33,912 nt of DNA. Origin: Bacillota bacterium (lineage in GTDB: Bacteria; Bacillota; Clostridia; Acetivibrionales; JANLFN01). Every line of letters begins with the position of its first letter. Position 1 is the stretch's first letter. A program made the translations under genes and the position numbers. Below are positions 1,904 through 29,009 of the stretch, piece by piece. The stretch is taken from contig JAUZPR010000021.1 in the NCBI GenBank assembly GCA_030705825.1, forward strand, positions 1-33,912, written 5' to 3'. Under the pieces are notes generated by a model. The model was not told the origin of the DNA. It saw only the letters and a list, made by a program, of their open reading frames with translations, and searched no databases.

Positions 1904-3988
1904 TTAGTTTAAACTCAATCCTTCTATTTTATTTGAAAACCTTTCGAGAACCTGTTTTTTAAGTTCCCGATTCTCTTCGGATATCAGGTACCTGTCTGCT
2001 TTTAAAAGGTCTAAAGCCGCTGTTTGTGCCAGTTTCAGTATTTCCATATCCTTATATAGGTTGGCAATTTTCAAATCAGGTATTCCATGCTGCCGTGTGC
2101 CAAAAAACTCACCCGGTCCCCTTAATTCCAAATCCTTCTCGGAGATATAAAAACCGTCATTGGATTTTTCCATAACTTCCATTCTTTCCTTTGATACGGT
2201 AGTTTTACCTTCATTATATAGTATACAGAATGACTGTTCAGCTCCCCTGCCGACTCTTCCTCTAAGCTGATGGAGCTGGGCCAGGCCGAACCTTTCGGCG
2301 TTTTCAATGATCATAACTGTTGAATTTGGCACATTCACACCTACTTCGATTACGGTAGTGGATACAAGGATGCTAATATCCCCACCCACAAACCTTCTCA
2401 TTGTCTCTTCCTTTTCACGGGGCTTCATCTTTCCATGAATCAAGCCTACATTCAGATCCTGAAAGTCTTTTTTTGCAATTCTTTCAGCCAGTTCTACTGC
2501 AGACTTTGCTTCCATTGCATCGGATTCTTCAACCAGAGGACATACTATATATACCTGCCTGCCTTCCTTTACTTTTTTCCTTATAAAGGCGTTAATCCTA
2601 TCCCTCATGGACTCATCAACCGAGTAGGTTTTTATTGGTTTTCTTCCCGGAGGAAGTTGGTCAATTATTGATATGTCAAGGTCTCCGTATAATATCAGTG
2701 CAAGCGTTCTGGGTATGGGGGTAGCCGTCATTACCAGAACATCAGGATTTTCGCCCTTCATGGCAAGCAGTGCTCTTTGCCTTACACCGAAACGGTGCTG
2801 CTCATCAGTTATAACAATCCCCAGCTTTTTAAACCGTACACTATCCTCAATCAATGCGTGTGTTCCTATCAGGATATCTATTTCACCGGTTGCAGTTTTT
2901 TCGAGGATTGCTTCCTTTTGCTTTTTTGTTTGGCTTCCTGTAAGAAGCTCTACCTTGATATCCCAATTATAAAGCAGCTCTGAAAGAGATTTAAAATGCT
3001 GTTCTGCAAGTATTTCGGTAGGAACCATGAATGTACCCTGATAACCACATTTGACCGCTTTAAACAGGGCAAGGACCGCTACGATTGTCTTTCCTGAGCC
3101 AACGTCTCCCTGAACCAGTCTGTTCATAACAGATGTACTTTCCATATCCTTTTCTATTTCTTCCAAAACTTTTTTCTGGGCACCTGTAAGCCTAAAAGGA
3201 AGACTTTCAATAAACTTGTCCAACAAACCGGTATGATGAAATTGGATCCCCTTCTTATCCTTTTCCAGATTGTTTTTTATGCTTAAAAGACCCAACTGCA
3301 ATAACAGCAGCTCTTCAAAAACGAGCCTATATCTGGCATTATCAAAATCCCTTTGGGATTTCGGAAAATGTATGTTTTGAATCGAATAGTTTATTTCACT
3401 TAAATTGTATTTATTTCTGATACTGCCCGAAATAGCGTCAAACATTTTGCCTTCCACCAGCTGCAGTGCATTTTTAATAACAGACCGGATTATGTTTTGC
3501 GAAAGCATGGAAGTAGCTGGATAAACCGGTATTATTCTGCAGGTATTTTTCATTTCGCTTCCGTCAACTTTTTCATATACCGGATTCATAATTTCAAAAG
3601 TACTATATTTTTTAGAAACTTTCCCGTAGAATACATATCTTTCTCCCGGGCTGAACACGTTTTTTATGTACTGCTGATTAAACCATGTAGCTGTAATTAT
3701 TGCTGTTTCATCCCGTATATTCAGCTTGTATATGGAAAGTCCTTTTCTTGGCCTGTTTTCTGTTATGTTTGACATAACCAGACCTTCAAAGGAGCAAACA
3801 TCTCCATCGTCCAATTCTATAATTTTTTTGAAATTACCCCTGTCTTCATAATTCCTGGGGAAATGGGTAATGACATCCTCCACATTATTAATTCCAAACT
3901 TAATAAAGTGCCTGGCTCTGGCATCACCAACCCCTTTTACATATTGAATCGGCTTTTTTAATATTTCACCAACTTTTGTTGTTTCCAC
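1904..3988 (-). CDS. recG: ATP-dependent DNA helicase RecG
   Basis: RecG remodels stalled replication forks and Holliday junctions by branch migration. The protein (694 residues, typical) has an N-terminal wedge/OB region (about 1-240), then the superfamily 2 helicase: Walker A in RLVQGDVGSGKTIVAV, a DEQH box (IVITDEQHRFGVRQ), motif III MTATPIPRT, and motif VI HQLRGRVGRG. The C-terminal DLELRGPGEFFGTRQHG is the RecG TRG/wedge-associated signature. A GTG at 3997 sits directly on the GGAG with no spacing, so I choose the next in-frame GTG at 3988, eight bases after GGAG. It is divergent from rpmB and 86 bases before the rsmD start, the usual recG-rsmD-coaD order. Confidence 0.96.
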   Translation of the reverse strand: METTKVGEILKKPIQYVKGVGDARARHFIKFGINNVEDVITHFPRNYEDRGNFKKIIELDDGDVCSFEGLVMSNITENRPRKGLSIYKLNIRDETAIITATWFNQQYIKNVFSPGERYVFYGKVSKKYSTFEIMNPVYEKVDGSEMKNTCRIIPVYPATSMLSQNIIRSVIKNALQLVEGKMFDAISGSIRNKYNLSEINYSIQNIHFPKSQRDFDNARYRLVFEELLLLQLGLLSIKNNLEKDKKGIQFHHTGLLDKFIESLPFRLTGAQKKVLEEIEKDMESTSVMNRLVQGDVGSGKTIVAVLALFKAVKCGYQGTFMVPTEILAEQHFKSLSELLYNWDIKVELLTGSQTKKQKEAILEKTATGEIDILIGTHALIEDSVRFKKLGIVITDEQHRFGVRQRALLAMKGENPDVLVMTATPIPRTLALILYGDLDISIIDQLPPGRKPIKTYSVDESMRDRINAFIRKKVKEGRQVYIVCPLVEESDAMEAKSAVELAERIAKKDFQDLNVGLIHGKMKPREKEETMRRFVGGDISILVSTTVIEVGVNVPNSTVMIIENAERFGLAQLHQLRGRVGRGAEQSFCILYNEGKTTVSKERMEVMEKSNDGFYISEKDLELRGPGEFFGTRQHGIPDLKIANLYKDMEILKLAQTAALDLLKADRYLISEENRELKKQVLERFSNKIEGLSLN

Positions 3989-4080
3989 TCGATACACTCC
4001 GCTAAAACATAATTAACACCGAATTTACTTATTTAATTTTAATACAATATACTTTTTTTTTCTATATATACAAAAATAAC

Positions 4081-4110
4081 TTGCAGAATTTCTTGGATTT
4101 GTGTTAAAAT
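4081..4110 (+). promoter_or_regulatory. promoter of rpmB
   Basis: A -35 box TTGCAG (4081-4086), an 18-base spacer and a -10 box TAAAAT (4105-4110) with an extended TG one base before it. It lies 84 bases before the rpmB start in the divergent recG-rpmB gap. The match to a vegetative promoter is fair; the start of transcription is inferred. Confidence 0.55.
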
Positions 4111-4194
4111 AGTTATTGCTTTGATTATAAGCAAAATTTATAAGTAAATTCTAATATTTGAAATATTACTCCATTGAAGGAGGTGTAACTATAA

Positions 4195-4383
4195 ATGGCA
4201 AAGTGTGATATCTGCAGCAAAGACATGAGTTTCGGACTTAAGGTCAGCCACTCAAACAGAAGAAGCAACAGAGCATGGAAACCCAATGTAAAGAAGGTTA
4301 GAGTAATAGTTGGCGGAACTCATAAATCAGTCAACGTTTGTACAAGATGCCTTCGTTCAAACAAGGTGACCAGAACAGTTTAA
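4195..4383 (+). CDS. rpmB: 50S ribosomal protein L28
   Basis: A 62-residue basic protein of the large ribosomal subunit. The sequence MAKCDICSKDMSFGLKVSHS matches L28, with NRRSNRAWKPNVKKV and RVIVGGTHKSVNVCTRCLRS following. Two CxxC pairs (C4/C7 and C52/C55) form the zinc-ribbon variant of L28. The start has GGAGGTG eleven bases upstream. It is a single-gene transcription unit: promoter at 4081-4110, a small GGGAC/GTCCC hairpin just after the stop (4391-4406), and a strong terminator at 4451-4490. In Bacillus rpmB also neighbours spoVM, as it does here. Confidence 0.97.
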   Translation: MAKCDICSKDMSFGLKVSHSNRRSNRAWKPNVKKVRVIVGGTHKSVNVCTRCLRSNKVTRTV

Positions 4384-4450
4384 TTTTTTTCGGGACCTGG
4401 TTGTCCCATTATTTTGCGTTTCTCGACTTTAATTTTCATTTTGAAATTAA

Positions 4451-4490
4451 AAAGCAATAAAAGAAGCTTCGGCTTTTTTTATTGCTTTTT
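4451..4490. terminator. bidirectional intrinsic terminator between rpmB and spoVM
   Basis: A 17-base arm (4451-4467) pairs with 4472-4488 with one mismatch, closed by a C(UUCG)G tetraloop, a very stable loop. T-runs lie on the plus side (4474-4480 and 4486-4490), and the mirror image is also T-rich, so it can end rpmB on plus and spoVM on minus. Confidence 0.85.
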
Positions 4491-4495
4491 AAACT

Positions 4496-4567
4496 TTAAC
4501 TCATCTTCAAGACTTTTTTAAGTATATTCCCAAAAAATCTCGGCATTTTTACAACTACTACCTTCAT
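4496..4567 (-). CDS. spoVM: stage V sporulation protein SpoVM (23-residue micro-protein)
   Basis: A 24-codon frame encodes MKVVVVKMPRFFGNILKKVL followed by KMS. I recognise SpoVM of Bacillus subtilis (MKFYTIKLPKFLGGIVRAML...): Lys2, Lys7, Pro9, Phe11, Gly13 and Ile15 agree, and the whole is an amphipathic helix. In Bacillus, SpoVM inserts shallowly into the convex forespore membrane and anchors SpoIVA, the base of the spore coat. The start has GGGGTGG about seven bases upstream. It faces rpmB across a shared terminator, and in Bacillus spoVM is likewise next to rpmB, which supports the call. A weak sigma-E-like -10 (CATAAATT, 4586-4593) lies upstream, but its -35 spacing is not convincing. 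The gene is shorter than most gene finders accept. Confidence 0.82.
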   Translation of the reverse strand: MKVVVVKMPRFFGNILKKVLKMS

Positions 4568-4696
4568 TAAAATACCACCCCACATAATTTATGGTACCAA
4601 CATTATCAGTATATTCCGATAAACTTGTTTTGGTGATTGTCTAATGAGGTTTTGCTCAACTTTCCCACATAGTAATTAGATTGGATAGTTGAGTAA

Positions 4697-4960
4697 TTAC
4701 CTTGTTTGTCTTGCAACGCTCTTAAACAGCCCAAGTATGAATATGAAGACTGCCGCTCCCAAGATGGTTGGTATTATAGAAATCCCCAGCACCCTTGGAC
4801 CCAGTGTATTGAAAAAAGGTATATATGCTCCTATCCATGAACCTACAAGCCCTGCAAGCAATGCTCCCCAGAAGCCTCCCGGCATATCATTCTTAACCAG
4901 GGCGTCTCCTATCCATCCTGCTATTGCTGCAATAACAAGTGTTAATAAAAATCCAAGCAT
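4697..4960 (-). CDS. GlsB/YeaQ/YmgE family small membrane protein
   Basis: An 87-residue protein with three membrane helices: LGFLLTLVIAAIAGWIGDAL, GFWGALLAGLVGSWIGAYI and ISIIPTILGAAVFIFILGLF. The glycine-rich GWIGD...GGFWGALLAGLVGSWIG pattern is the transglycosylase-associated / GlsB signature. The family is linked to envelope and general stress in Gram-positive and enteric bacteria, but the molecular function is not established. The start has AAAGGAGG six bases upstream. It probably forms its own transcription unit; spoVM follows 129 bases downstream on the same strand. Confidence 0.88.
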   Translation of the reverse strand: MLGFLLTLVIAAIAGWIGDALVKNDMPGGFWGALLAGLVGSWIGAYIPFFNTLGPRVLGISIIPTILGAAVFIFILGLFKSVARQTR

Positions 4961-5125
4961 TTTTATTCCTCCTTTCTATAACGACATAAAATAAATTGCA
5001 ATTATATTATCTGTACTTTTACGTTTTTTAATCAAACGTTATTGTATACCGGACAATTCTTCTGATTATTTTTGCTTATGGTTTTATTTCTTATTCGCAT
5101 GAATAAACTTTATTGAGGTGTTAAT

Positions 5126-5821
5126 ATGTATATTGTCATTGTTAACAATTACAAAAAAAAATTCTTTTTATTTGGTTTGCTTCTATTATTCTGGCTATTT
5201 ATGTACCTATTATCAGAACTAATTTCAGGAAACAAATTAATTAATGTAATTTCAATAAAGAATTCAATATCATTTTCCTGTCCTGAATCTCTTAAAGTTG
5301 AACAGATTTATTCCAACAGCAGTACCGGGGAACCATCGGTGGAATCAACCCTTAAGCATAGTATTCCCGTTATAGGGCAATTCTCCAATTATACCTCTCT
5401 GGAAGGCAAATTCAGTTTCGATTATCCATCCATATTTGAAATAGATACCAAGAATTTTGTTGGAAGTGATATTCTTTATCACGTTGATTTCAGTAATAAA
5501 GCTATTGGGGCTCATGGTTTTGTTCAAGTTTGGAAGCTTGATGAACCGCTTGCCCAGTTTCTCGAAAAGTCAAAATCCGTCTCTGCCCAAAACATTCAGG
5601 ATCTTACAGTAAAGCCGATAGCCTTAAAAGACATGCCGGGATATTTATGGGATTATTCCACTACAGCAGGCGACAATGTAAGGTATAAGGCAGAAGAGGT
5701 GTTCTTCGACAAGAACGGCAGGATGTACAGAATAAGCTATTTTGTACCATTGATATACTGGAACAAGACACAATCGGATACATTCTGGAAAATAGTAGAC
5801 TCACTTAAGGTATATAATTGA
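5126..5821 (+). CDS. membrane-anchored protein of unknown function (PsbP-like fold suspected)
   Basis: 231 residues. After a short basic N-terminus there is one hydrophobic segment (about residues 13-33, FFLFGLLLLFWLFMYLLSEL), which I read as an uncleaved signal anchor with the rest outside the cell. The outer part (about 85-231) runs SLEGKFSFDYPSIFEID ... GAHGFVQVWKLDEPLAQFL ... RYKAEEVFFDKNGRMYRISY ... DTFWKIVDSLKVYN. This beta-rich pattern with a final short helix resembles PsbP/DUF1795-like proteins, but I cannot confirm the family. The start has GAGGTG five bases upstream. It stands alone on plus, converging with the diguanylate cyclase gene across a terminator. No function can be assigned. 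Confidence 0.75.
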   Translation: MYIVIVNNYKKKFFLFGLLLLFWLFMYLLSELISGNKLINVISIKNSISFSCPESLKVEQIYSNSSTGEPSVESTLKHSIPVIGQFSNYTSLEGKFSFDYPSIFEIDTKNFVGSDILYHVDFSNKAIGAHGFVQVWKLDEPLAQFLEKSKSVSAQNIQDLTVKPIALKDMPGYLWDYSTTAGDNVRYKAEEVFFDKNGRMYRISYFVPLIYWNKTQSDTFWKIVDSLKVYN

Positions 5822-5828
5822 ATAAAAG

Positions 5829-5853
5829 AAAGCCCGACAGTCCGAGCTTTTTT
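5829..5853. terminator. terminator between convergent genes
   Basis: AAAGCCCG (5829-5836) pairs with CGAGCTTT (5843-5850) with one mismatch around a six-base loop, followed by a T-run to 5853. It ends the plus-strand unknown gene. The mirror strand also has a T-rich tail, so it may serve the diguanylate cyclase gene too. Confidence 0.6.
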
Positions 5854-5865
5854 GATAGTGATATA

Positions 5866-7578
5866 TTACTCCTTGTCATCAATTGTATCTGCAATCCTTA
5901 CGCAATTTCTTCCTGAAGATTTTGCATCATACAATGCATCATCGGCATGGCTTATCATTTCATTTTCAGAAAGAGAGGTCTCCGGATATGACGAAACTCC
6001 AAAGCTTACAGTAACGGAGGCTGCTACAAGATTATCCTTGATGCTTATGGAGGCTATCTTTTTTCTCAAGATTTCAACCTTGTCATAAGCTTCTCTGATA
6101 CTGGTCCTGGAAAACAAAATGACAAACTCTTCTCCGCCAAACCTTGCTATAATATCGGTTCCACGTATTGAACCTTTGACCAGTGAGGCTATGCTTTTAA
6201 GCACCTTGTCTCCAAACAGGTGACCATATGTATCGTTGAATTTTTTAAAATGGTCGATGTCAAAGATGGCAAGAGACAGTTTATAATCGTTTTCCTGCGC
6301 TCTGATAAATTCTTTAGACAGTCTGTCCTGAAAATACAGCCGGTTGTATACTCCCGTCAAGCCGTCTACGGTAGCCATCTCCTGCATCTGTTGATACAGA
6401 GCTGCATTTTCCATAGCTATACCTACCTGCTGGCCTATAACTGCAAGCAGTCTGAGATTTCCGTCATCAAATGCGTTGAAGTATTTATGTTCTACAAGAA
6501 CCACACCGAATTTTCTCGTTTTTGTTGTCAAAGGTACAGCTATAAGAGCTTTAACTTCCCTGTTTTTTATGAAGGAGTATGTGTCCGAATCTGCGAAATT
6601 TTCAAGAATGGGATTTCCATTCTGCAGGCAATCCATCAAGGCTTCGCAGTTAATATTATCATTTAGTATAACAAGTTCTTTCTTATTTTTTATATTTGTA
6701 GTATTTACCTTAAATCTGCCCTTCTTATCATCATAAAGAAGAATAGTGGAATAGCTGACGCCCATAACTCCTAATATAATGTCATTAACATGTCTTAATA
6801 ATTCGGTTGTATCAAATATTGAACCAATGACCCTGCCTATTTCCTGTAATGTATAGAACTCGGCAATACTGCTGGTTAGACGCTTATTGCTCTCTTCCAT
6901 TCTTAAATTAGCTTCTTCCAAAGCTTTATTGGTTTCGGTCAGAAGTCTGTTTCTGCCCTGAACTTCTTCCTCAACAGCGGCAAGCTGCTGGTATTTCTCT
7001 TCAAGCTGTGAAAGGAGCGCTTTATTCTCCTCATCCTTCATTTTACTCTCTTTGGCAAGTATATTGCAGAAAATTACAAGTATTAAACCCATAAGGCAAT
7101 AAAACACCATTGTTGTAAAATTACCTTTATCTACAAAGCTTTTAACTGTTTGATGTGTATTTACATACAGATGCATAAAATAAATCAGCATATTGGTTAT
7201 CATCCAATATGAAAGTATCATATACCCGAATTTTATGCCTCTCGAAAGTTCTATTGTAATTATGGCAAAAAGTGCGAATATATAAGCCCATTCTCCGATA
7301 TTTCCAAGTACAATGCCGACAAGAATTATAGTAATTTCAAATACACGGGTAAGAATATGAGATAAATCAGATTTAATAATATACTTAAGCAGGCATTTGC
7401 TTTTAACTAGGTTGAGTAAAGCAGCTGCCGGATAGAATACAAATACCATTGTCATTCCGTTGCCATTAGTATTTGTATGGTATATAAGAAGTGAAATAGT
7501 ATTAAGCAGGAAACCTGCAGCAATAAAAAGCCATGTTGATTTAATAAACAACTTTTCAAAAAATTCTGTTCTATTCAC
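5866..7578 (-). CDS. membrane diguanylate cyclase with GAF sensor domain
   Basis: About 570 residues that should make cyclic di-GMP from two GTP. Layout: about six membrane helices (to about 175), a coiled coil (about 180-235), a GAF domain (about 240-395, with EIGRVIGSIFDTTELLRHV and AVIGQQVGIAMENAALYQQM), and a GGDEF domain. The active site reads RFGGEEF. Five residues before GGEEF lies RGTD, an intact RxxD inhibitory site, so product feedback is expected. An ATG at 7584 is only two bases from AGGAG, so I prefer the GTG two codons later, eight bases from it; the choice changes two residues. The signal sensed by the membrane or GAF part is unknown. An HD-GYP phosphodiesterase (12370-13785) and a second GGDEF protein (29108-30169) are in the window. 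Confidence 0.93.
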   Translation of the reverse strand: MNRTEFFEKLFIKSTWLFIAAGFLLNTISLLIYHTNTNGNGMTMVFVFYPAAALLNLVKSKCLLKYIIKSDLSHILTRVFEITIILVGIVLGNIGEWAYIFALFAIITIELSRGIKFGYMILSYWMITNMLIYFMHLYVNTHQTVKSFVDKGNFTTMVFYCLMGLILVIFCNILAKESKMKDEENKALLSQLEEKYQQLAAVEEEVQGRNRLLTETNKALEEANLRMEESNKRLTSSIAEFYTLQEIGRVIGSIFDTTELLRHVNDIILGVMGVSYSTILLYDDKKGRFKVNTTNIKNKKELVILNDNINCEALMDCLQNGNPILENFADSDTYSFIKNREVKALIAVPLTTKTRKFGVVLVEHKYFNAFDDGNLRLLAVIGQQVGIAMENAALYQQMQEMATVDGLTGVYNRLYFQDRLSKEFIRAQENDYKLSLAIFDIDHFKKFNDTYGHLFGDKVLKSIASLVKGSIRGTDIIARFGGEEFVILFSRTSIREAYDKVEILRKKIASISIKDNLVAASVTVSFGVSSYPETSLSENEMISHADDALYDAKSSGRNCVRIADTIDDKE

Positions 7579-18221: not shown

Positions 18222-19016
18222 TTATTCATCCATTGCGCTTCTCAAACTACTGACAAATTCACCTACTTTAGCTACTGCTTCATCTTCGGTGCTGCTTTCA
18301 CCTACTCTTCTTACAATGGCGCTTCCTACTATAAGCCCGTCGCAATAGCCTTTAAGCTTTTTTATATGCTCGGGGGTAGATATCCCAAATCCCAGAGCCG
18401 TAGGTATTGTTACAGACTTGTTTATTATTGAGAAAAATTCTTCAAAATTGGTATCAAAGCTCTCTCTTGTCCCAGTAACCCCAAGAGATGATACACAATA
18501 CAGAAATCCTCTTGCACTCCTGGCAATTCTTTCTACCCTGTCTTTGGAAGTCGGAGATACCAAAGAAATAATATCAATAGAGTACTTTAAGGCTGTATCC
18601 TTTATTTCATCCTGTTCTTCAAAAGGAAGGTCGGGAATAATTACCCCGTCCACTCCTGAATTTTTACAGTCGTCAAAAAACTTATCGGCTCCATATTGAA
18701 ATATACAATTATAGTACAGCAGATAAACAATCGGAACTTTGACCTGAGTCCTCATTTCCATAACAGCGTCCATAATATTTTTAATTTTAATATCATTTTT
18801 TAAAGCCCTGATATTTGCTGCCTGAATAACCGGTCCTTCTGCAATGGGATCTGAATAGGGTATACCCAACTCAATCAAGTCGGCTCCCTTTTGTTCTATT
18901 TCGCTGACAATTTTTTTTGTAGCTTCAATAGTCGGATCACCAGCCGTGACAAATGTAATCAGAGCTTTTGTATTTATATTTTTCAATTCATCGAATTTAT
19001 CCTGTATTCTACCCAT
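18222..19016 (-). CDS. trpA: tryptophan synthase alpha chain
   Basis: Cleaves indole-3-glycerol phosphate to indole and glyceraldehyde 3-phosphate; the indole passes to TrpB. 264 residues, a TIM barrel. Catalytic Glu is in LIELGIPYSDPIAEGP and catalytic Asp in DGVIIPDLPFEE. The phosphate site is ALGFGISTPEH and GLIVGSAIVRR. ATG start follows AGGAGG. It is the last gene of the operon, 28 bases after trpB. Confidence 0.97.
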   Translation of the reverse strand: MGRIQDKFDELKNINTKALITFVTAGDPTIEATKKIVSEIEQKGADLIELGIPYSDPIAEGPVIQAANIRALKNDIKIKNIMDAVMEMRTQVKVPIVYLLYYNCIFQYGADKFFDDCKNSGVDGVIIPDLPFEEQDEIKDTALKYSIDIISLVSPTSKDRVERIARSARGFLYCVSSLGVTGTRESFDTNFEEFFSIINKSVTIPTALGFGISTPEHIKKLKGYCDGLIVGSAIVRRVGESSTEDEAVAKVGEFVSSLRSAMDE

Positions 19017-19044
19017 AATAACCTCCTATCATCATAATATCCTG

Positions 19045-20244
19045 TTAACCTTCCGATGATATATCCTCCCCCATGTACTTTGCTATCGAATAAACGTCCT
19101 TATCTCCTCTTCCCGAAATATTTACAACTATGATTTTATCTTTGGGAAGAGTAGGTGCCAGTTTTACAGCATATGCCACCGCATGTGCACTTTCTATTGC
19201 AGGTATTATACCTTCTACACGAGTCAGATATTTAAAGGCTTCCACAGCTTCATTATCGGTTGCAGGTACATATTGTGCCCTGCCCGATGAATATAGGTGT
19301 GCATGCTCCGGACCTATTCCCGGATAGTCAAGTCCTGCAGAAATGGAGTAAACAGGGTCTATCTGTCCATCCCTGTCCTGAAGGAAATAGGATTTCATAC
19401 CATGAAGAACTCCTACACTTCCCTTGGCTATTGCTGCGGCATGTCTTACGGTATTAACACCCTCTCCGGCTGCTTCAACACCTATCATATTTACTTCCTT
19501 ATCTTCAATAAAAGGATGGAACAATCCCATAGCATTGCTTCCGCCGCCTACGCAGGCAATAATGTAATCGGGATATCTTCTTTCCTTTTCCATAATCTGT
19601 GTCTTGACTTCCCTGCCTATTACGCTTTGGGAATCCCTGACTATCATAGGATAGGGATGCGGGCCTACAACCGAGCCTATGGCAAAGTATGTGTCATCTA
19701 TTCTTGAAGCCCATTCACGCATTGCTTCACTGGTAGCATCCTTCAAGGTTCCTGTGCCTGATAAAACAGGTCTTACTTTTGCACCCAAAAGCCTCATACG
19801 AAAAACATTAAGTGCCTGGCGCTCCATATCTTCTTTACCCATGAATATTTCGCATTCCATATTGAACAAGGTAGCTGCTGTTGCTGTTGCCACTCCATGC
19901 TGGCCTGCTCCGGTTTCCGCAATAAGTCGTTTCTTGCCCATTCTTTTTGCCAGCAGCGCTTGGCCTATTACATTATTGATCTTGTGAGAACCTGTGTGAT
20001 TCAGATCTTCACGTTTAAGGTAAATTTTTGCCCCGCCCAGGTCTTTTGTCATCCTATCGGCGAAATACAACAAAGATGGCCTTCCGGCATATTCCTTAAG
20101 GTAGAACTCAAATTCTCCAATGAATGATTTGTCATTCTTGAACTTTTCATATTGATTTTCCAATTGAAGCAGTGCATTCATCAGCGTTTCAGGTATATAT
20201 TGACCGCCAAATTCGCCATATCTGCCCTTTTTCTGTGTCGCCAT
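19045..20244 (-). CDS. trpB: tryptophan synthase beta chain
   Basis: PLP enzyme that condenses indole with serine. 399 residues from the ATG at 20244, nine bases after GGAGG; a TTG three codons upstream touches the ribosome site and is rejected. The PLP lysine is in [20 protein letters not shown], and the phosphate-binding loop is [10 protein letters not shown]. The N-terminus ([16 protein letters not shown]) is that of the standard TrpB1 type that pairs with TrpA. 26 bases separate it from trpF. Confidence 0.98.
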
Positions 20245-20270
20245 CTGTGTCAACCTCCATTTAATGCAAT

Positions 20271-20894
20271 TTAAATAGCTCTAGCTATTTCTATAAAATT
20301 TCTGATCTTGATTTCATCTTTAAACCCTTCGGTTTCAACTCCGCTGCTTACATCAACAATATAAGGCTTTACAGCCTTTATAGCCCTTTTGACATTTTCA
20401 CTGTTAAGGCCTCCGGCAAGAACTATTCTTTTATCACTGGCTGCTTTGGCAGCAATGTCCCAGTCGAAAATCTGACCTGAACCGCCATAGCTGCCTTTAA
20501 CAAAAGTATCAAGCAAATAAGCATCGGCATCATAAGAGTAAAGCAAATCCAAACTGCTTTTGTCAATGACCCTTATACTCTTCCATACCTGCGTTTGATA
20601 TCCTGTTCTTTCTTTTATTTTAACAAGAAAATCCGGAGCTTCCTCTCCATGTATCTGGACCGCATCAAGGCTGCATGCTTCAACTGCCGCTGCTATTTCT
20701 TCCAACCCGGCGTTTACAAAAACTCCGGCCTTTTTTATATCCTTATCAAGGCCTGCCGAAAGCTGTGCCGCCTCAGATAAGGAAACCCTTCTGCGGCTTT
20801 CGGCAAATACAAAACCTATATAATCCGGCTTGTACCTGTTTACGTATTCGATATCCTCATGTCTTTTAAGCCCGCATATTTTAACCAGTGACAC
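20271..20894 (-). CDS. trpF: phosphoribosylanthranilate isomerase
   Basis: Amadori rearrangement of phosphoribosylanthranilate to CdRP. 207 residues. The N-terminus [18 protein letters not shown] carries the catalytic Cys of the KICG motif. The catalytic Asp lies in AYLLDTF, and [10 protein letters not shown] plus [11 protein letters not shown] form the phosphate site. The start is GTG directly after the trpC stop (TAA-GTG), with GGA seven bases upstream, so translation is probably coupled to trpC. Confidence 0.97.
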
Positions 20895-21680
20895 TTAATT
20901 TTCCGCCTTCATTTCCAATACCTTCTGCTTTATTGAAGCTGCCCTCATAAAGGTTTCACCTATCAGTACGGCATCAACGCCAAGTTCTTCCAGATATTTC
21001 ATATCTTCCGGGGTCCTTATTCCGCTTTCGCTTACCACAACCTTATTATGAGGGATGTAATTCAATAATTTTTCGGTTGTAGTTATATCTTCTTCAAAAG
21101 TATGCAAATTCCTGTTATTGATACCTATAATCCTTGCATCAACAGCCAGAGCTCTTTCAAGCTCATTTCTGTCATGAACTTCTACCAGACACTGCATACC
21201 GAGGATTCCGGCAACGATATGGAACTTTTTCAGTTCTTCATCGTTAAGAATGGCTGCAATAAGCAGTATTGCATCTGCTCCCAGATACCTTGATTGATAT
21301 ACCTGCCACAGATCTATTATAAAATCCTTTCTGAGAAGCGGTAGAGGAACTGCCTGCCTGACCCTCATCAGATAATCGTCGCTTCCCTGAAAGAAGGTTT
21401 TCTCGGTAAGTACCGATATAGCCTGTACTTCAGCCTCATTATATTCTCTTGATATTTCAACAGGGTCAAAATTCTCCCTTATAAGCCCTTTAGAAGGTGA
21501 AGCTTTCTTTATTTCAGCTATGATGGAAACACTGCCGTTTCTTTTAAGCGAACCGTAAAAGTCCAGAGTTTTGTGCAAACCAGGCCTTTTCAGTCTGTCC
21601 TTCCAGCCATCTATTGATATTTTACTTTTCTCTTCCTTGAGCTGCAGCTTTTTTTGAATAACTATATCATCTAATATCAT
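20895..21680 (-). CDS. trpC: indole-3-glycerol phosphate synthase
   Basis: Closes the indole ring from CdRP. 261 residues. Key blocks are SIIAEIKKASPSKGLI (catalytic Lys), PLLRKDFIIDLWQVYQS (second Lys and phosphate contacts), LVEVHDRNELERAL (Glu), IIGINNRNLHTFEED, and VVSESGIRTPEDM. ATG start follows AGAGG. An 87-base gap with a hairpin separates it from trpD, the widest gap in the operon. Confidence 0.98.
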   Translation of the reverse strand: MILDDIVIQKKLQLKEEKSKISIDGWKDRLKRPGLHKTLDFYGSLKRNGSVSIIAEIKKASPSKGLIRENFDPVEISREYNEAEVQAISVLTEKTFFQGSDDYLMRVRQAVPLPLLRKDFIIDLWQVYQSRYLGADAILLIAAILNDEELKKFHIVAGILGMQCLVEVHDRNELERALAVDARIIGINNRNLHTFEEDITTTEKLLNYIPHNKVVVSESGIRTPEDMKYLEELGVDAVLIGETFMRAASIKQKVLEMKAEN

Positions 21681-21767: not shown

Positions 21768-22799
21768 TTAATTGGTAGCTTCACACAAGAAACCTTGGGA
21801 ATAGGATTTAAGTTCTTCGAGCTTGCTTAAAGCCTTGCCGCTGTCTATAATTTCAGCTGCCATAGCCAACGCCTGTTCCATGCTGTCTGCTGCCTTTCCC
21901 ACATACAATGATGCTGCTGAGTTCAATAATACTATATCCCTTTGTGGTCCTTTCTCACCGTTAAATATCCTGTATATGATTTTTGCGTTTTCAATTGCAT
22001 CCCCGCCTTTAATATCATCGGATGAGGCTTTTGCTATACCATATTTTTCGGGATCGAGTTCATAATTGTTTACCTGTCCGTTGTTAAGCTCGGAAATTTT
22101 GGTAGTTCCGGTAATTGTTATTTCATCAAGTCCGTCTGAACCATGTAGTACCATTGCCCTCTCAATATCAAGATTTGCAAGCACCCTTGCAATAGGCTCG
22201 GTAAGCTTTCCGTCAAATACACCGAGTACTTGCCCTTTGGCGGCTGCCGGGTTTGTAAGAGGTCCGAGTATATTGAAAATGGTTCTTATTCCTAGTTCCT
22301 TTCTCGGTCCGCCTGCATATTTCATGGATTTATGAAAGGTAGGGGCAAACATGAAGCCTATACCCACACTTTCAACACAGCTTTTTACCTGCACCGGAGT
22401 AAGATTAATATTTACTCCGAGTGCTTCAAGCACATCCGCACTTCCGCTTCTGCTTGATACCGACCTGTTTCCGTGCTTTGCCACAGAGACTCCTCCTGCC
22501 GAAGCAACAAATGCAGCTGCTGTAGAAATGTTGAAGGTATTGGCTCCGTCTCCTCCTGTTCCGCATGTATCAATATAGTAATCCATTTCAGGAGAAATTC
22601 TGTCTGCTTTATCCCTCATTACTTTCGCACAGCCAGTAATTTCTTCAATTGTTTCTCCCTTAATCCTGAGAGCAGTCATAAAGCTCCCTATTTGTGCCTG
22701 TGTTGCATTTCCGTCCATAATACAGCTCATTGCTCCCATAACTTCCTGCTCAGTAAGGTTTTTTCCCTCTACCAGCTTTTGAATGGCATTTTTAATCAT
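21768..22799 (-). CDS. trpD: anthranilate phosphoribosyltransferase
   Basis: Joins anthranilate to PRPP. 343 residues from the ATG at 22799, five bases after GGAGAGG; an ATG six codons earlier is inside the ribosome-site region. The PRPP site is DTCGTGGDGANTFNISTAAA, followed by SVAKHGNRSVSSRSGSADVLEALG. DGLDEI is the second metal site. Not fused to trpG, unlike in enterics. It lies between trpG (29-base gap) and trpC. Confidence 0.98.
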   Translation of the reverse strand: MIKNAIQKLVEGKNLTEQEVMGAMSCIMDGNATQAQIGSFMTALRIKGETIEEITGCAKVMRDKADRISPEMDYYIDTCGTGGDGANTFNISTAAAFVASAGGVSVAKHGNRSVSSRSGSADVLEALGVNINLTPVQVKSCVESVGIGFMFAPTFHKSMKYAGGPRKELGIRTIFNILGPLTNPAAAKGQVLGVFDGKLTEPIARVLANLDIERAMVLHGSDGLDEITITGTTKISELNNGQVNNYELDPEKYGIAKASSDDIKGGDAIENAKIIYRIFNGEKGPQRDIVLLNSAASLYVGKAADSMEQALAMAAEIIDSGKALSKLEELKSYSQGFLCEATN

Positions 22800-22828
22800 A
22801 ATAACCTCTCCTCTCATCTCAGCTCAGC

Positions 22829-23401
22829 TTATTGATTTACCTGAAGAAAATTGTTCAGAATTCTTTTACCCTCAGGTGTCATTATTGATTCCGGGTGGAA
22901 TTGTATTCCGAATACCGGATATTCCTTATGTTTAAGCCCCATTATCTCACCATCGTCTGTAACTGCAGTAACCTCCAATTCATCAGGCAGGGTTTCCTTT
23001 TCGACTATCAGTGAATGATATCTTCCGGCCTTTATTTTACCGGGCATGTCGTTAAATAATCTACAGCTGTTTTTAACCTTTATTTCGGATGATTTACCAT
23101 GCATCAATTCTTTGGCATGTATGACCTTCCCCCCGTATGCCTCTCCTATTGCCTGATGTCCCAGACATACACCCAGTACCGGTATTTTGTACCCAAATTT
23201 TTTTATTACTTCTATTGAGATACCCGCATCAGCCGGGAATCCAGGACCGGGAGATATTACGATGTGTGATGGCTTCAGTTTTTCTATTTCCTCAACCGTG
23301 ATTTTATCATTCCTTAATACCTGTATATCACTATTTAATTCGCCTATAAACTGATAAAGGTTATAGGTGAATGAATCATAATTATCAATTATAAGTATCA
23401 T
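22829..23401 (-). CDS. trpG: anthranilate synthase, glutamine amidotransferase subunit
   Basis: Supplies ammonia from glutamine to TrpE. 190 residues, class I amidotransferase: nucleophile Cys79 in VLGVCLGHQAIGE, catalytic His and Glu in FGIQFHPESIMTPEG, oxyanion loop VISPGPGFPADAG. Its ATG overlaps the trpE stop (ATGA, four bases), so translation is coupled. In some Firmicutes the same subunit also serves folate synthesis (PabA); no pab gene is here. Confidence 0.97.
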   Translation of the reverse strand: MILIIDNYDSFTYNLYQFIGELNSDIQVLRNDKITVEEIEKLKPSHIVISPGPGFPADAGISIEVIKKFGYKIPVLGVCLGHQAIGEAYGGKVIHAKELMHGKSSEIKVKNSCRLFNDMPGKIKAGRYHSLIVEKETLPDELEVTAVTDDGEIMGLKHKEYPVFGIQFHPESIMTPEGKRILNNFLQVNQ

Positions 23402-24882
23402 CTTATATATTTCGCCTCCTCCAAAGCTTTAAGCAGTGCTCTTGACTTATTCAGCGATTCTTCGTATTCTTTTTCGGGAACCGAATCTGCAACAATTCCG
23501 GCACCTGCCTGTACATATGCTGTCTTATCCTTGCAGACAATAGTCCTTATTGTTATGCAGCTGTCCAGGCTGCCGTCAAAGCTTATATAACCGATAGCTC
23601 CTCCGTATGGGCCTCTTTTTACAGTTTCAAGCTCATCTATTATTTCCATTGCCCTTATTTTGGGAGCCCCCGAAAGGGTCCCTGCAGGGAGAATTGCCAT
23701 AAGTGCATCAAAATTGGTTTTTTTCTCATCTAGCGTTCCCTGGACATTGGTTACAAGGTGGATTACGTGGGAGTACTTTTCTATATGCATTGGATCTTTT
23801 ACAACTACCGATCCGAATTTTGAAACCTTTCCTATATCGTTTCTTCCAAGATCTACAAGCATTGTATGCTCTGCAAGCTCCTTTTCATCTGAAAGCAGTT
23901 CTTTTTCAAGCTCTGCATCTTCCTGGGGAGTTGAACCTCTTTTTTTGGTCCCTGCTATGGGGCAGGTCTCAACTATCCCATTTTCAACTCTTGCCAGCAT
24001 CTCTGGAGAAGAGCCTATTATCTGGTATTGATCAAATTTAAGATAATACATGTAAGGTGAAGGATTGATTACCCTCAGCGCTCTGTAAATATCAAACGGT
24101 TCACTTTCCAGCTTTGTAGAAAGCCTTTGTGACAATACTACCTGGAAAATATCACCGTTCCTTATGTATTCCTTGGCTTTAAGAACATTGCTGCAGTATT
24201 CTTCCTTTGATATGTTGCTTGTAAAATTGGTTTCAGATTTTTGAATATTGTAATTGTATTTTGTATTTTCGGAAATTTTCCACCTTCCGTTGAGAATTTC
24301 CTTATGAATTGCCTTTATTCTTTCAATTGTGCTGTAATAAGCCCGTTCAATATTACCGTCTATATGGAGATTAACAATAATGTGTATTTTTTGTTCCAGA
24401 TGGTCAAAGGCAATAACTTCATCAGCTATCATGAAATGACTGTCGGGAAGATGCAAATCGTCTTCAGGAACATTGGGCAATTCCTCGCAGTACCTTATCA
24501 GATCATAACCGAAATATCCTACCGCACCGCCGTTAAATCTCGGCAAGCCGGCTTCCTTCATACCTTTAAAAGCACCGATTACTTCTTGAAGCGCCTCTAT
24601 TGGATTGCCTTCAATATTTCGTATATTTCCGTCCCTATCCTCAACAGTTGATTTGCCGTCTACACTTTTAAAAATAAGTGAAGGATTTCTGCCTATAAAT
24701 GAAAATCTTGCCCATTTTTCGCCTCCCTCAACGCTTTCCAGCAGGAAGCAGTATTTGCTGCTTTCAAATCTTTTAAAAATACTTATGGGCGTTTCCATAT
24801 CGGCGTAAATTTCCATTGAAACAGGAATAGTATTATATTTTTTGGATAATTCTTTTATTTCTTCCAGACCGGGATAAAACAA
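23398..24882 (-). CDS. trpE: anthranilate synthase component I
   Basis: Converts chorismate to anthranilate, the first committed step of tryptophan synthesis. 494 residues from the TTG at 24882. The start is chosen because AGGAGG is nine bases upstream and FYPGLEEIKELSKKYNTIPV is the family N-terminus. The frame stays open for 55 more codons upstream, but those lie in the regulatory leader. The feedback-site region ESVEGGEKWARFSFIG holds the LLES-type tryptophan-binding motif. The catalytic half has GSSPEMLARVENG, CPIAGTKKRG, HTMLVDLGRNDIGKVS and PAGTLSGAPKIRAMEIIDELE. First gene of a complete trpEGDCFBA operon. Confidence 0.97.
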   Translation of the reverse strand: MFYPGLEEIKELSKKYNTIPVSMEIYADMETPISIFKRFESSKYCFLLESVEGGEKWARFSFIGRNPSLIFKSVDGKSTVEDRDGNIRNIEGNPIEALQEVIGAFKGMKEAGLPRFNGGAVGYFGYDLIRYCEELPNVPEDDLHLPDSHFMIADEVIAFDHLEQKIHIIVNLHIDGNIERAYYSTIERIKAIHKEILNGRWKISENTKYNYNIQKSETNFTSNISKEEYCSNVLKAKEYIRNGDIFQVVLSQRLSTKLESEPFDIYRALRVINPSPYMYYLKFDQYQIIGSSPEMLARVENGIVETCPIAGTKKRGSTPQEDAELEKELLSDEKELAEHTMLVDLGRNDIGKVSKFGSVVVKDPMHIEKYSHVIHLVTNVQGTLDEKKTNFDALMAILPAGTLSGAPKIRAMEIIDELETVKRGPYGGAIGYISFDGSLDSCITIRTIVCKDKTAYVQAGAGIVADSVPEKEYEESLNKSRALLKALEEAKYIR

Positions 24883-24891
24883 TACATCATT

Positions 24892-24907
24892 CCTCCTTTT
24901 ATAAGGA
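24892..24907 (-). promoter_or_regulatory. trpE ribosome binding site within a small hairpin
   Basis: The trpE Shine-Dalgarno AGGAGG (24892-24897 read on minus) overlaps one arm of a 5-base-pair stem, TCCTT (24903-24907 on minus) with AAGGA (24894-24898), loop of four. Bacillus trpE has a separate SD-blocking hairpin controlled by TRAP. This one is short, so its effect is uncertain. Confidence 0.35.
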
Positions 24908-25008
24908 AGATATGAGTATGGATGTGAGTACAAGGAACCGGCTTTTACAAACCGGTAAATCATATGACATGAAATGTTAAACAGGTAAATTTTCTTTTGG
25001 AAAATATT

Positions 25009-25045
25009 TCGTAAAATAATTAAAGCCAGGTTGAAAAAACCTGGC
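25009..25045 (-). terminator. leader terminator (attenuator) upstream of trpE
   Basis: In the transcript GCCAGGTT (25038-25045) pairs perfectly with AACCTGGC (25025-25032) around a U-rich loop of five, followed by TTTAATTATTTT (down to about 25013). It is inside the untranslated leader, about 14 bases downstream of the last GAG triplet and 140 bases before trpE, as expected for a transcription attenuator. Confidence 0.8.
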
Positions 25046-25058
25046 AAATATACATATC

Positions 25059-25117
25059 CTCACGTAAACCTCTGCCTCGTCTCATCTAACTCTACTCATC
25101 TCTTCTAATCTCATCTG
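25059..25117 (-). promoter_or_regulatory. TRAP-type binding site: GAG/UAG triplet array in the trp leader
   Basis: Read 5' to 3' on minus, the triplets are CAG, GAG, UAG, GAG, GAG, GAG, UAG, GAG, GAG, GAG and, eight bases later, GAG. Their plus-strand positions begin at 25115, 25110, 25105, 25100, 25095, 25090, 25086, 25081, 25076, 25070 and 25059, so the spacers are two bases with one exception of one, one of three and the last of eight. The ring-shaped TRAP protein (MtrB) of Bacillus binds 11 G/UAG triplets spaced by two or three bases in just this place, before the trp attenuator. No mtrB gene is in this window. The triplet pattern is seen directly; binding by TRAP is inferred. Confidence 0.78.
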
Positions 25118-25136
25118 ATATTAAATTATTATGAAA

Positions 25137-25165
25137 ATTATAGCACATACCAAAAGTTTATGCAA
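25137..25165 (-). promoter_or_regulatory. promoter of the trp operon
   Basis: On minus, TTGCAT (25160-25165), a 17-base spacer and a perfect TATAAT (25137-25142). Transcription would begin near 25130, about 15 bases before the first triplet of the GAG/UAG array, giving a leader of about 250 bases. It lies just beyond the P-II gene. Confidence 0.85.
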
Positions 25166-25224: not shown

Positions 25225-25566
25225 TTAAATCAAAGCTTCATCACCCTGCTGGCCGGTCCTGATCCTGTAGGAATAACCCATATCTGATATAAATATTTTA
25301 CCGTCTCCTATTTCTCCGGTTCTGGCGGCTTTGACAATAGTATCAATTATTTCTTCCACACATGCATCCTTTGTTACTATTTCTATTTTTACTTTCGTTA
25401 GGAGATTAATATTATACTTATTACCCCTGTAGTATTGTACCCTGCCGCCCTGCAATCCGCAACCCATTACCTGTGTTACCGTAACGCCGAATATATGGTG
25501 CTTGTTAAGTTCATCCAATACTTCGGACAGTTTTCCGGGCCTTATTATTGCTTCTATTTTCTTCAT
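25225..25566 (-). CDS. P-II nitrogen regulatory protein
   Basis: 113 residues, a trimeric signal protein that reads 2-oxoglutarate and ATP/ADP. The T-loop has YYRGNKYNINLL with Tyr51 at the usual modification position, and the two PROSITE-type blocks are present: MKKIEAIIRPGKLSEV at the start and GEIGDGKIFISDMGYSYRIR (ATP-binding B and C loops) near the end. GlnB and GlnK cannot be told apart from sequence alone. No ammonium transporter gene (amt) is adjacent, which is unusual for glnK. Start follows GAGGTG. The trp promoter starts 60 bases downstream on the same strand, and no clear terminator separates them. Confidence 0.93.
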   Translation of the reverse strand: MKKIEAIIRPGKLSEVLDELNKHHIFGVTVTQVMGCGLQGGRVQYYRGNKYNINLLTKVKIEIVTKDACVEEIIDTIVKAARTGEIGDGKIFISDMGYSYRIRTGQQGDEALI

Positions 25567-27995: not shown

Positions 27996-29009
27996 ATGAT
28001 AATTATTATGAACAAGGATGCAACGAGAGAGCAAATAGATAATGTGGAGCACAAGCTTTCGGAACTTGGCTTTAAGACACATCCCATATTTGGTGAAGTT
28101 AAAACGGTAATAGGAGCAATAGGTGATAAAAGGCATCTTAATCCCCAGCTTATTTCAATCATGCCTGGAGTGGAAAACATTGTACCCATAATGAAACCGT
28201 TCAAGCTTGCAAGCCGTGAATTAAAACAGATTTCTTCGATAGTTGAGATTGGAGACGTCAAAATAGGTGGTAATGAAATTGTAGTGATGGCGGGTCCCTG
28301 TGCTATCGAAAATGAATCCAACTTTGTTGAAACGGCAATAAGGGTTAAGGAGGCGGGTGCGAAAATAATCAGGGGTGGTGCATTCAAACCCAGGACTTCC
28401 CCATACGCTTTCCAGGGTCTTGAAGAAGACGGACTTAAAATAATGGCTTCAGCCAGAGAGGCAACCGGCCTCAAACTGGTCACCGAGGTTGTTGACACAA
28501 GAGATGTGGAGCTTGTAGCATCCTACGCCGATATCCTTCAAATAGGTGCCCGTAACATGCAGAATTTCAGGCTGCTTCAGGAAGCAGGCCTTTCCAAAAA
28601 GCCTGTACTGTTAAAACGAGGGCTTGCGGCAACCATAGAAGAATGGCTAATGGCAGCTGAATATATAATGGCTGCTGGTAACCCAAATATCATACTTTGT
28701 GAAAGAGGAATACGCACCTACGAGACAGCAACACGAAACACCCTGGATTTAAGCGCTATTCCCGTTATAAAAGAATTATCCCATCTTCCCATAATAGTAG
28801 ACCCGAGCCATGCGGCAGGAACCTGGAAGTATGTAGGCCCCCTGGCAAAAGGAGCAGTAGCTACAGGTGCTGACGGTTTAATAATCGAGGTACACCTTGA
28901 CCCCCCAAATGCTTTCAGTGACGGTCCCCAATCACTCCGCCCCGACAAATTCGCCGAACTGATGAATGAGTTGAAGCCTATGGCAAGTGCAGTTGGAAGA
29001 ATCATTTAG
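27996..29009 (+). CDS. aroF: 3-deoxy-7-phosphoheptulonate (DAHP) synthase, type I beta
   Basis: Condenses phosphoenolpyruvate and erythrose 4-phosphate, the entry to aromatic amino acid synthesis. 337 residues. The N-terminal about 70 residues ([20 protein letters not shown] and on) form the small regulatory domain seen in the Thermotoga-type enzyme, where Phe or Tyr binds. The barrel has [53 protein letters not shown] and [14 protein letters not shown], covering the PEP and metal ligands. The ATG follows AAAGGAG by ten bases. It is under the T-box just upstream and stands alone, about 3 kb from the trp operon on the other strand. Confidence 0.96.

Follow-up and report, generated by a model that had tools for sequence, protein, structure and literature searches.

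A probable TRAP-type attenuator at the trp operon of a clostridial genome, with predicted additional sites at trpD and trpB2

The window, a 33,912-nt stretch of contig JAUZPR010000021.1 (assembly GCA_030705825.1; Bacillota, Clostridia, order Acetivibrionales), carries a trp operon on its minus strand that begins with trpE and continues with trpG, trpD, trpC, trpF, trpB, and trpA (Table 1). Immediately upstream of the trp promoter, and in the same orientation, is a gene for a P-II nitrogen regulator (25225-25566, minus strand). Ahead of trpE, the minus strand reads TATAAT ... CAGATGAGATTAGAAGAGATGAGTAGAGTTAGATGAGACGAGGCAGAGGTTTACGTGAGG ... GCCAGGTTTTTTCAACCTGGCTTTAATTATTTT, and transcription probably starts at approximately 25130. 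The first-pass annotation had called the promoter near-consensus, which is true of its extended -10 element, a perfect match, but not of its -35 element, which matches at only 3/6 positions, at 17-nt spacing. A short frame, MMYCFIPVWKK, with one Trp codon (ATGATGTATTGTTTTATCCCGGTCTGGAAGAAATAA, 24890-24855, minus strand), overlaps the trpE start in a different frame.

Table 1. Features of the trp operon and its leader, in window positions.
Feature	Position	Strand	Details	Basis
Promoter	25137..25165	-	-35-like TTGCAT (25165-25160), 17-nt spacer, extended -10 TGCTATAAT (25145-25137)	Sequence
TRAP-type triplet array	25059..25117	-	CAG + 10 GAG/UAG (11 NAG), mostly 2-nt spacers; first bases: CAG 25117, GAG 25112, UAG 25107, GAG 25102, GAG 25097, GAG 25092, UAG 25088, GAG 25083, GAG 25078, GAG 25072, GAG 25061	Sequence, array scan
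Array segment GAAGAGAUGAGUA	25093..25105	-	12/13 complementary to the stretch before the trpE Shine-Dalgarno sequence	Sequence, co-variation
Antiterminator core, 5' strand	25071..25076	-	GGCAGA, inside triplets 9-10	Folding
Antiterminator core, 3' strand	25043..25048	-	UUUGCC, overlaps the terminator 5' arm	Folding
Intrinsic terminator (attenuator)	25016..25045	-	Hairpin 25045-25025 and U-rich tail	Terminator scan, folding
Anti-Shine-Dalgarno region and Shine-Dalgarno hairpin	24891..24918	-	UACUCAUAUCUUC (24918-24906), predicted to pair with the free array; hairpin UCUUCCUU (24910-24903):AAGGAGGA (24898-24891)	
trpE	23398..24882	-	TTG start, first gene of the operon	TIGR00564, 599 bits
trpG	22829..23401	-	Overlaps the end of trpE	
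Second TRAP-like array AAGctGAGctGAGatGAGagGAG	22808..22830	-	On the trpD Shine-Dalgarno sequence (array scan: 22825-22808)	Array scan, genome pattern search
trpD	21768..22799	-	Probable ATG start at 22799; listed ORF begins at 22817, inside the array	TIGR01245, 440 bits
trpC, trpF, trpB, trpA	18222..21680	-	Remainder of the operon	

The leader contains a conspicuous array of NAG triplets. The ten G/UAG triplets with a CAG in register and a mostly 5-nt period, as first described by eye, were borne out by a chain score that rewards NAG triplets spaced two or three bases apart. The array scores 15.5; 2,000 dinucleotide-shuffled leaders peak at 7.0 and shuffled versions of the whole window at 7.5, and none of 5,000 shuffles of the purine-rich 70-nt array region alone attains this value. 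Its spacers are, in order, 2, 2, 2, 2, 2, 1, 2, 2, 3, and 8 nt; because of those of 1 and 8 nt, only nine triplets are well spaced, a point against the TRAP reading. The single other strong array in the window lies at the trpD ribosome site.

An intrinsic terminator sits between the array and trpE, as a TRAP leader requires. The hairpin reported by the first-pass annotation was recovered as GCCAGGTT-TTTTC-AACCTGGC, with 8 pairs, followed by TTTAATTATT; the terminator scan returned this one terminator against 0.2 expected. The U-tract is imperfect (UUUAAUUAUU), which counts against reading the element as a TRAP attenuator. Most leaders in the order also contain a terminator.

No strong antiterminator had been seen by eye, and a pairing of AGGTT (25067-25071) with AACCT of the terminator arm had been put forward as a weak candidate. 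This pairing is absent from the main predicted fold and was set aside as the antiterminator. Instead, folding the RNA from the array to the terminator end alone predicts a GGCAGA:UUUGCC core, flanked by outer pairs that join the array to the remaining terminator region. This structure is the best fold once the polymerase has reached 25030 (-19.2 kcal/mol), when the 3' arm of the terminator is still incomplete. Leader folding with and without the triplets blocked, the check proposed by the first-pass annotation, gives the terminator a probability of 0.01 when the array is free to pair and of 1.00 when it is kept single-stranded. Blocking the first five triplets leaves the antiterminator in place, and blocking the first seven raises the terminator probability to 0.91. 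In simple folds of relatives, an antiterminator is predicted in only some leaders, and the median terminator probability is 0.89 even with the array free.

These structures suggest the following switch. When tryptophan is abundant, the MtrB (TRAP) ring would bind it and wrap the 11 NAG triplets of the nascent leader. The wrapped array could then no longer form the antiterminator, the terminator hairpin would fold, and transcription would halt ahead of trpE. When tryptophan is scarce, the free array would pair with the terminator region and the operon would be transcribed.

A second layer of control may act on transcripts that read through the terminator. In these, the array could pair with the anti-Shine-Dalgarno region before trpE and oppose the Shine-Dalgarno hairpin, whereas a TRAP-bound array would favor the hairpin and lower trpE translation. 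Most leaders of the order have a stretch like TTCTCATGTCTTCCTT immediately before the trpE Shine-Dalgarno sequence; it complements the array segment GAAGAGATGAGAA, and the final part of the stretch pairs with the Shine-Dalgarno sequence. The window has TACTCATATCTTCCTT as the stretch and GAAGAGATGAGTA in the array, so that the two have changed in step. In a comparison of 30 loci, pairing is better between an array and the anti-Shine-Dalgarno stretch of its own leader than between arrays and stretches of different loci (permutation p of 5e-5); for terminator hairpins, the same holds across 23 loci (permutation p of 5e-5). Both values are only indicative because the loci are related. Four control regions in the anti-Shine-Dalgarno test (the reversed stretch, coding start, start region, and upstream region) gave p values of 0.06-0.60. 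A dinucleotide-shuffle test of the array:anti-Shine-Dalgarno pairing is only moderately strong (median z of -1.7; z of -0.9 for the window) because both sides are compositionally biased, and the own-versus-other permutation test with its controls is the better of the two. Blocking the array lowers the predicted Shine-Dalgarno accessibility in 23 of 24 leaders of the order. In the full-length fold of the window's own leader, the Shine-Dalgarno sequence is hidden both ways, with an accessibility of 0.06 free and 0.00 bound; a TRAP-dependent translational switch at trpE is therefore less well supported here than in relatives.

To look for further sites, the 3.65-Mb genome was searched for exact matches to four KAG triplets with 2-nt spacers, and the genes at the matches were identified by NCBIfam and ORF calls. 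The pattern occurs at only four places, all at trp genes: the trpE leader, the trpD ribosome site of the window, the trpD ribosome site on a second contig (C63), and the start of trpB2 on a third (C77). The reversed pattern also occurs four times, so the count alone is unremarkable, and it is the location of all four at the start of trp genes that is remarkable. On C77 (L236; 2651-2672, minus strand), the array TAGatGAGgaGAGatGAG lies over the Shine-Dalgarno sequence and start of the TrpB2 gene. C63 (L174; GC content of 42%, compared to 38% for the window) carries a second trp cluster, trpB-A-D-C-F with a T-box leader (2051-6645 and 6781-7027; T-box, 110.8 bits), in which the trpD ribosome site bears a six-triplet TRAP-like array, TAGaaGAGtaGAGtaGAGgaGAGatGAGtATG. 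Being led by a T-box, this cluster would sense tRNA at its leader and, presumably, tryptophan via TRAP at trpD. The DAHP synthase gene of the window (27996-29009) was considered as a further target, and the plus strand of the window holds no strong array.

At the shorter array on the trpD ribosome site of the window, TRAP would block trpD translation directly. To our knowledge, the trpD site is not a described TRAP target in B. subtilis. Most loci of the order in which trpD was located carry the trpD array (typically GAGatGAGaaGAGagGAG), as do several array-bearing loci outside the order; MtrB-negative genomes lack it, except for a weak score of 5.5 in one (G702). The trpB2 array occurs in most of 30 loci of the order. 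The arrays at trpD and trpB2 could be nothing more than strong purine-rich ribosome sites, an explanation that we regard as unlikely, though with a real claim to attention: they are short, with 4 to 6 good triplets, they overlap Shine-Dalgarno sequences, and the known B. subtilis sites are longer, at 9 to 11 NAG triplets (PMC4347634). However, the 5-nt period runs well upstream of the Shine-Dalgarno sequences, the trpD array is conserved in the order and missing from MtrB-negative genomes as described above, and in the whole genome such arrays occur at trp genes only. We lean toward a TRAP regulon in this order with targets undescribed in Bacillus, in which trpE attenuation is joined by a direct block of the trpD and trpB2 ribosome sites. 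In this genome it would come on top of the T-box that leads the second operon, trpBADCF; the same genes would then respond to both free tryptophan and uncharged tRNA, with no anti-TRAP involved. The novelty of this proposal lies more in the trpD and trpB2 sites, which stand as predictions.

The protein that would read these arrays is encoded in the same genome. The MtrB homologue that the first-pass annotation proposed to search for is present as a single PF02081 (MtrB/TRAP) gene on contig C90 (5147-5344; 135 bits; E value of 2.7e-39; 77-aa ORF). In the PDB it matches MtrB/TRAP chains; identity to Geobacillus TRAP is 49 of 66 aligned residues, and the motifs EKLDKGE and IKxRGK are shared with the solved structures. 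The alignment retains residues that contact RNA and tryptophan in TRAP, among them K37, K56, and R58, which we take to be the RNA-contacting residues of B. subtilis TRAP. Judged by its sequence, the product of the gene next to mtrB looks like a deoxyribose-phosphate aldolase. Anti-TRAP (rtpA, PF15777), whose search had been proposed as well, has no match in the genome.

MtrB is found in 53 of 58 genomes of the order, which presumably includes Acetivibrio thermocellus, as well as in 71 of 291 genomes of the class and 200 of 398 sampled genomes of the phylum (half), so that TRAP in Clostridia is no peculiarity of one genome. Inspection of the leader in relatives, a further check put forward at the outset, found the triplets conserved: an array lies ahead of trpE in 30 of the 30 best trpE loci of the order, with 90 to 260 nt separating its last triplet from the start. 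From the more distant TrpE loci of the order, those of G522, G697, and G702 were examined in addition to these 30. Of 25 MtrB-positive loci outside the order, 12 score at least 7. None of 17 MtrB-negative loci has an array or scores above 5.5. Among the loci lacking an array, T-boxes were found in four MtrB-positive and five MtrB-negative ones. One member of the order (G697) is MtrB-negative and has a T-box at trpE. Conversely, no MtrB was found in one 99%-complete genome (G694, locus L154) even though its trpE array is clear, owing to either an assembly gap or a recent loss. At another locus of the order (L167), the best chain upstream of trpE runs to 25 triplets, is built from repeats of a GAGatTAGttAAG unit, and could accommodate two TRAP rings.

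A triplet-binding protein other than MtrB might act on the array, as MtrB and the array need not always co-occur: G522, which we take to be Ruminiclostridium-like, is MtrB-positive and has a trpE leader without an array (score of 4) that appears T-box-like by eye. TRAP in that genome must have other targets, possibly trpB2. Such a protein is nonetheless very improbable in the window genome, where MtrB is present and highly conserved, MtrB co-occurs with arrays, and all exact four-triplet arrays lie at trp genes. Less credible still is control by a T-box or a ribosome-stalling leader peptide with the GAG triplets as incidental purine-rich sequence, which had been named from the start as an outcome that would speak against TRAP and is already largely refuted: T-boxes do control trpE in many related genomes, MtrB-positive ones included, and the second trp operon of this genome has one, but the T-box family (RF00230) gave no match in the trpE leader in Rfam searches of the window, which had no Rfam match at all, and of L141, reading by eye found no Trp-rich leader peptide ahead of the terminator, Trp codons are missing from MRLEEMSRVR, the one short ORF that the array contains ahead of the terminator, and conservation of the array tracks MtrB.

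The array, terminator, alternative fold, mtrB gene, conservation, and co-variation, all computed here, point with high confidence to a trp operon leader under Bacillus-type TRAP control, for which we infer MtrB binding, its tryptophan dependence, and the size of its effect. The TRAP interpretation of the first-pass annotation stands, while the antiterminator, the anti-Shine-Dalgarno refolding, and the TRAP-like sites at trpD and trpB2 had escaped it. Since the gene for the protein resides in the same genome as its docking site, it is very probable that this Bacillus switch operates in a large group of Clostridia as well. The literature found treats TRAP as a Bacillus mechanism and usually ascribes clostridial trp operons to T-boxes. 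No description of TRAP in Clostridia was found in the literature searched, and a prior mention is possible, for example in the comparative studies by Gutierrez-Preciado and others (2007, 2009). The type of system is familiar; what sets this case apart is a TRAP attenuator found beyond the Bacilli and accompanied by predicted sites at trpD and trpB2. The attenuator is complete, comes with an mtrB gene, and is maintained throughout an order. Conservation of the two added sites makes them new and directly testable targets, and close relatives with a T-box instead allow the replacement of one tryptophan sensor by another to be studied.

Several known systems resemble the one proposed here. The T-box trp operons of Clostridia likewise show tryptophan-responsive attenuation of trp genes, but they sense via RNA-tRNA contact, and in this genome a T-box leads the second trp operon and is absent from the leader studied here. 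Bacillus halodurans also has TRAP and many NAG triplets at trp, 19 in its leader, and its TRAP is a 12-mer with Lys15/Thr72 (PMC3184956). The MtrB of the window genome has Glu and Ser at the equivalent positions and, with Ser at the residue-72 position and no Lys at 15, is probably more like an 11-mer. At the trpG, trpP, and ycbK ribosome sites of B. subtilis, triplets overlap the Shine-Dalgarno sequence and TRAP blocks ribosome entry (PMC11255114, PMC4347634), as would be the case here, where the targets are instead trpD (two copies) and a trpB2, with fewer triplets. The closest counterpart is the B. subtilis trpEDCFBA leader, which shares the 11 NAG triplets with 2- to 3-nt spacers, the antiterminator overlapping the triplets and the terminator 5' arm, the terminator before trpE, and a long-range refolding onto the trpE Shine-Dalgarno sequence, which is putative in the window (PMC3913778, PMC11255114). 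The present system differs in its clostridial host, in having trpG inside the operon and an extra array on the trpD ribosome site, in that anti-TRAP was not found, and in the length of its leader (approximately 250 nt, compared to 203 nt). The switch logic is that of B. subtilis (PMC3913778).
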